A stretch of 64,000 bases of DNA. Source: Chitinophagales bacterium (GTDB taxonomy: Bacteria > Bacteroidota > Bacteroidia > Chitinophagales > JADIYW01). The notes under the pieces are model-generated. The model saw only the letters and a program-made list of their open reading frames with translations. It was not told the origin of the DNA and searched no databases. The stretch lies in assembly GCA_023957235.1 (NCBI GenBank), contig JAMLHI010000001.1, forward strand, positions 1-64,000. Reading direction: 5' to 3'. Below, in pieces: positions 60,813 through 61,204 of this stretch (position 1 is its first letter; every line of letters begins with the position of its first letter). The translations under genes and the position numbers were made by a program.

Positions 60813-60848
60813 TAAAAAGGAGAGGGTTGCATTTGCAACCCTCTCCTT
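60813..60848 (-). terminator. Terminator of the tRNA-Asn unit
   Basis: AAGGAGAGGGTTGC and its perfect complement (60817-60830 with 60835-60848), 4-nt loop; on the minus strand followed by a T-run. It may also end the convergent lipoprotein transcript. Confidence 0.9.
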
Positions 60849-60855
60849 CCTTTTG

Positions 60856-60929
60856 CTCCCCCTGTTGGACTTGAACCAACGACCCTCTGATTAACAGTCA
60901 GATGCTCTAACCGACTGAGCTAAGGAGGA
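60856..60929 (-). tRNA. tRNA-Asn (GTT), promoter-distal copy
   Basis: A 74-nt cloverleaf on the minus strand. Acceptor TCCTCCT pairs with AGGGGGA (one G-U); D arm GCTC/GAGC; anticodon loop CTGTTAA with GTT; T arm with GGTTCAAGTCC. Discriminator G; CCA is not encoded. Identical in sequence to the copy at 61014-61087, and probably co-transcribed with it. Confidence 0.97.
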
Positions 60930-61013
60930 AAATAATTGTTTAGAACTACTCAATAAAATGACTAAGCTTTAACAATAAGAACTTGTATTTTATACTCTAT
61001 CCTTGAGTGGTGG

Positions 61014-61087
61014 CTCCCCCTGTTGGACTTGAACCAACGACCCTCTGATTAACAGTCAGATGCTCTAACCGACTGAGCTAAGGAGGA
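61014..61087 (-). tRNA. tRNA-Asn (GTT), promoter-proximal copy
   Basis: A 74-nt tRNA identical base for base to the copy 158 bp away. The identity extends only two bases on one side and one on the other, so just the gene is conserved. The nearest promoter is at 61151-61181. The 84-bp spacer shows no second promoter. Confidence 0.97.
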
Positions 61088-61147: not shown

Positions 61148-61181
61148 TTGCAAATGTAGATGTTTAATTTTAATTTTGCAA
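61148..61181. promoter_or_regulatory. Face-to-face interleaved promoters of pfkB and tRNA-Asn
   Basis: On the plus strand TTG (61148-61150), 20 bp, then TAATTTTG (61171-61178). On the minus strand TTG (61179-61181), 20 bp, then TACATTTG (61151-61158). Each -33 element directly abuts the other promoter's -7 element, so the two divergent promoters occupy the same 34 bp. The outer ends form an inverted repeat, TTGCAAA / TTTGCAA. Confidence 0.65.
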
Positions 61182-61204
61182 CTTTGCATTCAAATTTTTT
61201 AACA

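Follow-up and report, generated by a model that had tools for sequence, protein, structure and literature searches.

Predicted overlapping divergent promoters for tRNA-Asn genes and a PfkB-family kinase gene in a Chitinophagales bacterium

Near the end of the window, by which we mean the whole stretch of 64,000 nucleotides analyzed here, two tRNA-Asn genes and the gene for a PfkB-family carbohydrate kinase (pfkB) diverge from a short intergenic region (Table 1). This raises the question whether two promoters can be folded into the same 34 bp, and whether such an arrangement is peculiar to this genome. The primary sigma factor of Bacteroidota, sigma-ABfr, recognizes promoters with TTTG at -33 and TAnnTTTG at -7 (PMC7366714). 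In our reading, to which we assign a probability of roughly 0.8, the site represents overlapping divergent promoters for this sigma factor, which would direct transcription of tRNA-Asn one way and of the kinase gene the other way.

Table 1. Features of the tRNA-Asn/pfkB locus; promoter elements are predicted and positions refer to the window.
Feature	Position	Strand	Remarks
Terminator (intrinsic) of the tRNA-Asn unit	60814..60851	-	17-pair stem, TTTTT tail; -29.3 kcal/mol, z -6.8
tRNA-Asn(gtt), second copy	60855..60929	-	
tRNA-Asn(gtt), first copy	61011..61087	-	
pfkB -33 candidate TTG for A	61148..61150	+	TTG in own genome and G001; ATG in G002
tRNA-Asn promoter, -7 element TACATTTG	61151..61158	-	counterpart aligned in 51/52 syntenic loci
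pfkB -7 candidate A, TAATTTTG (proposed by the first-pass annotation)	61171..61178	+	within the genus, in L002, L003 and L004 only
tRNA-Asn promoter, -33 element TTG (CAA on +)	61179..61181	-	N20 from its -7
pfkB -7 candidate B, CAACTTTG	61179..61186	+	overlaps the tRNA -33; counterpart of AATATTTG/AATCTTTG in relatives
PfkB-family carbohydrate kinase, 306 aa	61205..62125	+	PF00294, E 1.2e-33

Geometry of the site and the tRNA-Asn promoter

On both strands a TTG is followed after N20 by a -7 box of the sigma-ABfr type TAnnTTTG, TAATTTTG on the plus strand and TACATTTG on the minus strand, and a TTG or TTTG at 18–21 bp from the -7 box, which we required of a -33 element, is thus present in both directions. 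The ends of the 34-bp site form the inverted repeat TTGCAAA (61148–61154)/TTTGCAA (61175–61181), and the two -7 boxes share no bases and are separated by 12 bp. Both boxes and the inverted repeat lie exactly where the first-pass annotation had put them. A single TTG-N20-TAnnTTTG is unremarkable in this AT-rich window, with 4 found against 2.2 expected. The interlocked pair, allowing any gap of 2–30, gave one match in the window and none in 100 dinucleotide shuffles of it, and the exact twin is the sole copy in the 3.0-Mb genome. Among 116 divergent ORF-ORF intergenic regions located in 1.2 Mb of the genome, no perfect TTG-N17-23-TAnnTTTG pair was detected.

The assignment of the minus-strand promoter to the tRNA-Asn genes, which had been proposed from the motif, is well supported. 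The promoter, TTG-N20-TACATTTGCAATCGC, resembles other tRNA promoters of this genome, for example TATATTTGCACTCGC at tRNA-Lys, Gly and Asp, and its spacing is N20 in 40 of the 52 syntenic relatives. The -7 box leads into CAATCGC, a GC-rich start region that is common to the other tRNA promoters of the genome; TAnnTTTGCA[AC]TCGC recurs at tRNA-Lys, Gly, Asp, His, Arg, Leu and Glu. Typing of all 42 tRNA genes showed that the two copies at this locus are the genome's only genes for tRNA-Asn. Because no TAnnTTTG lies between the two copies, they are probably cotranscribed. Combined with the strong terminator after the second copy, this points to supply from a single promoter, and tRNA-Asn in this genome probably comes from the interlocked promoter alone. 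The near-perfect hairpin of the terminator contains TTGCAAATGCAA, which is similar to the promoter's own TTGCAAATG.

The kinase gene and its promoter in relatives

For the kinase itself, no NCBIfam equivalog scored over its cut-off and no curated substrate family fits; its best solved relative is 3kd6. The same PfkB-family kinase occurs in 122 of 158 sampled Bacteroidota genomes. The ATG at 61160 chosen by the ORF caller, which lies inside the site, was rejected as start of pfkB because relatives begin at the position corresponding to 61205.

From relatives we collected 124 distinct pfkB loci, 118 of them with enough upstream sequence, and a divergent tRNA-Asn was located upstream of pfkB in 52 of the 118. 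Aligned on the tRNA promoter, these loci commonly read TGCAAAnnTA-N20-CAA followed directly by TATTTG or TCTTTG, so that the tRNA -33 (CAA) abuts or overlaps a -7-like core at a distance from the ATG that suits pfkB. Of the 36 loci in which the tRNA -33 lies no more than 50 nt from the ATG of pfkB, 30 have a TT[TC]G core 1–4 nt behind it, whereas at larger distances this was the case in only 1 of 16 (Fisher 1.6e-7, on relatives that are not independent and with relatedness corrected only roughly; shuffles gave 0.7 on average and at most 5). If a TAnnTTTG just before the CAA is also counted, 33 of the 36 close loci have the overlap. The TTTG behind the -33 was considered as a part of the tRNA promoter and rejected, because none of 17 further tRNA promoters in the genome has it and it is missing in 15 of the 16 loci with a distant pfkB. 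The dependence on a nearby pfkB and the absence from other tRNA promoters argue that the TTTG-type core belongs to the promoter of pfkB and not to that of the tRNA.

Absence of the arrangement from all close relatives had been named as an observation that would refute the proposal. Instead, the exact form is present in a congener (G001) as well, and most members of the family, along with other orders, have overlapping forms. Our genome and G001 agree at 33 of 34 positions of the 34-bp site and at 22 of 23 in the stretch to the ATG, compared to 39 of 60 in the tRNA leader. The family and order of the window have the overlap, as do the Sphingobacteriales isolates Mucilaginibacter sp. OK283 (L083) and Solitalea longa (L106), Phaeodactylibacter xiamenensis (L090) and two further families of the class; in the phylum sample, the synteny was absent from most families beyond the order of the window and two other families of the class. 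Across the pfkB tree, the loci with the overlap (34) are scattered, and this state requires at least 18 changes against a mean of 29.7 after shuffling, indicating that it is clustered yet was often lost or regained. In several lineages the promoters are separated or the synteny is lost, and the overlap is therefore not essential. The distribution of the core between near and distant loci suggests that the overlap is old and recurrent, although not phylum-wide and frequently lost. Judged from these comparisons, the arrangement is older and more common than initially supposed, and the exact palindromic twin of 34 bp would be the genus-level version of an older overlap. In another family of the order (L156, L158 and L161), the pfkB -7 TATATTTG is positioned directly before the CAA of the tRNA side, with a tRNA spacing of 18. 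This abutment resembles the arrangement described by the first-pass annotation and possibly originated independently.

A plus-strand promoter for pfkB with TAATTTTG as its -7 box (candidate A) was part of the original proposal. The overlapping divergent promoter as such holds, but the named box is conserved in three genomes of the genus only, and its TTG in two. The pfkB -7 that is conserved across families is AATATTTG or AATCTTTG, located on the tRNA -33 or immediately behind it and 8 bp downstream of A; the corresponding candidate B reads CAACTTTG in the genus of the window and CAAATTTG in its member G002. With odds that we place slightly short of even, A is fortuitous: one base change in the A/T-rich -33 region of the tRNA promoter (ATGCAA to TTGCAA) would have created TAATTTTG, and pfkB would use B only. 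Outside the genus, A is indeed absent at this position, where relatives read TAAATATG or TAATTATG, and B is no worse than A (10.4 versus 9.3) on a matrix that was built from pfkB loci without tRNA and in which TTTG is fixed by construction. However, A forms a perfect TTG-N20-TAnnTTTG with a predicted leader of about 20 nt, close to the usual length (the commonest leader in B. theta has 23 nt; PMC7366714), and its -7 is retained in all three genomes of the genus. Candidate B has a mismatch to the -7 consensus at its first base, lacks a TTG at 18–21 bp and predicts a short leader of about 12 nt. Either candidate, as positioned, would interlock with the tRNA promoter.

Exact copies in the order and comparison with known promoters

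A search of 299 genomes of the order located the twin motif TTGCAAAnnTA-N12-TAnnTTTGCAA at 15 places, distributed over 14 genomes, compared to none for the reversed control, and when the gap was varied from 2 to 32 in 120 genomes, 5 of 12 matches had a gap of exactly 12; the recurrence of the motif within the order is thus non-random. Leaving out the own genus, there are 13 exact copies in 12 genomes, and all of them are located between divergent genes, which suggests that this geometry is a recurrent way to build divergent promoters in this order. Twelve of the 13 adjoin an HxlR-type regulator gene (PF01638 was confirmed for 8, the other 4 were called by HxlR-like sequence) and one adjoins a TetR-type gene. 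By analogy, the inverted repeat could serve as an operator through which a repressor silences both genes. We consider this very improbable for the present site and rejected it, because its neighbors are tRNA-Asn and pfkB with no regulator gene adjacent, and relatives lose the palindrome but keep the promoter boxes.

In line with the first-pass annotation, which knew of no example of this geometry in Bacteroidota, we found no described case in the open-access literature on tRNA promoters in divergent competition, overlapping Bacteroides promoters or HxlR divergent promoters in Bacteroidetes, but the 13 further copies in the order show that the geometry as such is not unique. The partner genes of the HxlR-flanked twins are oxidoreductase-, pirin- or hydrolase-like (L142, L144–L155), and several of the 13 twins have TATAG/ACTATA repeats beside the boxes that look like regulator sites.

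Compared to other sigma-ABfr promoters, the site has the consensus with N20 on both strands, and the tRNA side agrees with the tRNA promoters of the genome; the difference is that the consensus occurs twice on the same bases, head to head and interlocked. By geometry, the boxes of each promoter lie inside the polymerase footprint of the other, and as a class this overlap is conserved in relatives. Classical overlapping divergent promoters, such as those of bioA/bioB and tetR/tetA, come with an operator and a repressor. They likewise have the boxes of each promoter inside the binding site of the other, whereas at our site no operator or repressor is evident and one of the partners is a tRNA operon. 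We regard the arrangement as a variant of these known overlapping divergent promoters. Bidirectional promoters of E. coli and other prokaryotes also use a short pseudo-symmetrical sequence for both directions, and one orientation should exclude the other (PMC12825309). In E. coli, both directions share one -10 element and the starts are 10, 18 or 23 bp apart (PMC12825309), whereas here the -7 boxes are separate, each -33 abuts the opposite -7 and the predicted starts are about 41–49 bp apart. Since a shared -10-type box is lacking, the site does not qualify, by its motifs, as a bidirectional promoter in this strict sense.

Mutual exclusion and possible competition

Polymerase bound in one orientation would transcribe the two tRNA-Asn genes, and in the opposite orientation the kinase gene, with starts predicted, some 7 bp beyond the respective -7 boxes, at about 61144 on the minus strand and at about 61185 (A) or 61193 (B) on the plus strand. 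The tRNA -33 adjoins or overlaps the kinase -7, and both polymerase sites would therefore occupy the same ~35–45 bp and could never be filled together; with starts at the predicted distance, a bound polymerase would cover the boxes of the other promoter. Mutual exclusion is therefore a sound steric inference from the geometry. The presumably strong tRNA promoter would most likely hold the site for most of the time, and the kinase would be made at a low level when the site is free.

Competition for expression between tRNA-Asn and pfkB is plausible by analogy, yet unproven, because competition at bidirectional promoters of E. coli arises only if one direction has strong activity: at basal activity competition was not measurable, and strong activity in one direction depressed the other (PMC12825309). 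That the site acts as a dedicated regulatory switch is conceivable but lacks support. In such a switch, polymerase directed towards the tRNA genes would repress pfkB, and starvation, via ppGpp acting on the GC-rich start region of the tRNA promoter, would free the kinase. The CAATCGC start region shared with the tRNA promoters of the genome, opposed to an A-rich kinase side, the retention of the overlap in nearly all close loci and the repression of one direction by strong activation of the other in E. coli would be compatible with such a function. We nevertheless consider it unlikely, as promoters at basal level do not compete in E. coli, the genes are apart or unlinked in many relatives and no link between the kinase and asparagine tRNA is known. 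More doubtful still is a generalization to several orders of Bacteroidota, according to which tRNA promoters interlocked with those of housekeeping genes (pfkB/tRNA-Asn, era/tRNA-Met) would let the occupancy of the tRNA promoter set expression by growth rate, without a regulator protein.

Returning to overlapping divergent promoters as the preferred reading, the locus offers a conserved natural test case for competition: an mRNA promoter and a tRNA promoter, the latter presumably strong, occupy the same bases, and the phylum has a promoter code of its own. The palindrome TTTGCAA joins a -7 box to the opposite -33 box, and interlocked divergent promoters should therefore arise easily in Bacteroidota and be readily located in sequence searches.

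A similar interlock was observed between the divergent tRNA-Met and era genes, where the -33 of the tRNA promoter is followed almost at once by TATATTTG of era. Three genomes of the genus and a single genome from a different genus have it (L138, L301–L303 and L310); in the genome of the window, the site lies around position 1445 of L138 (G000:C10, near 238000).
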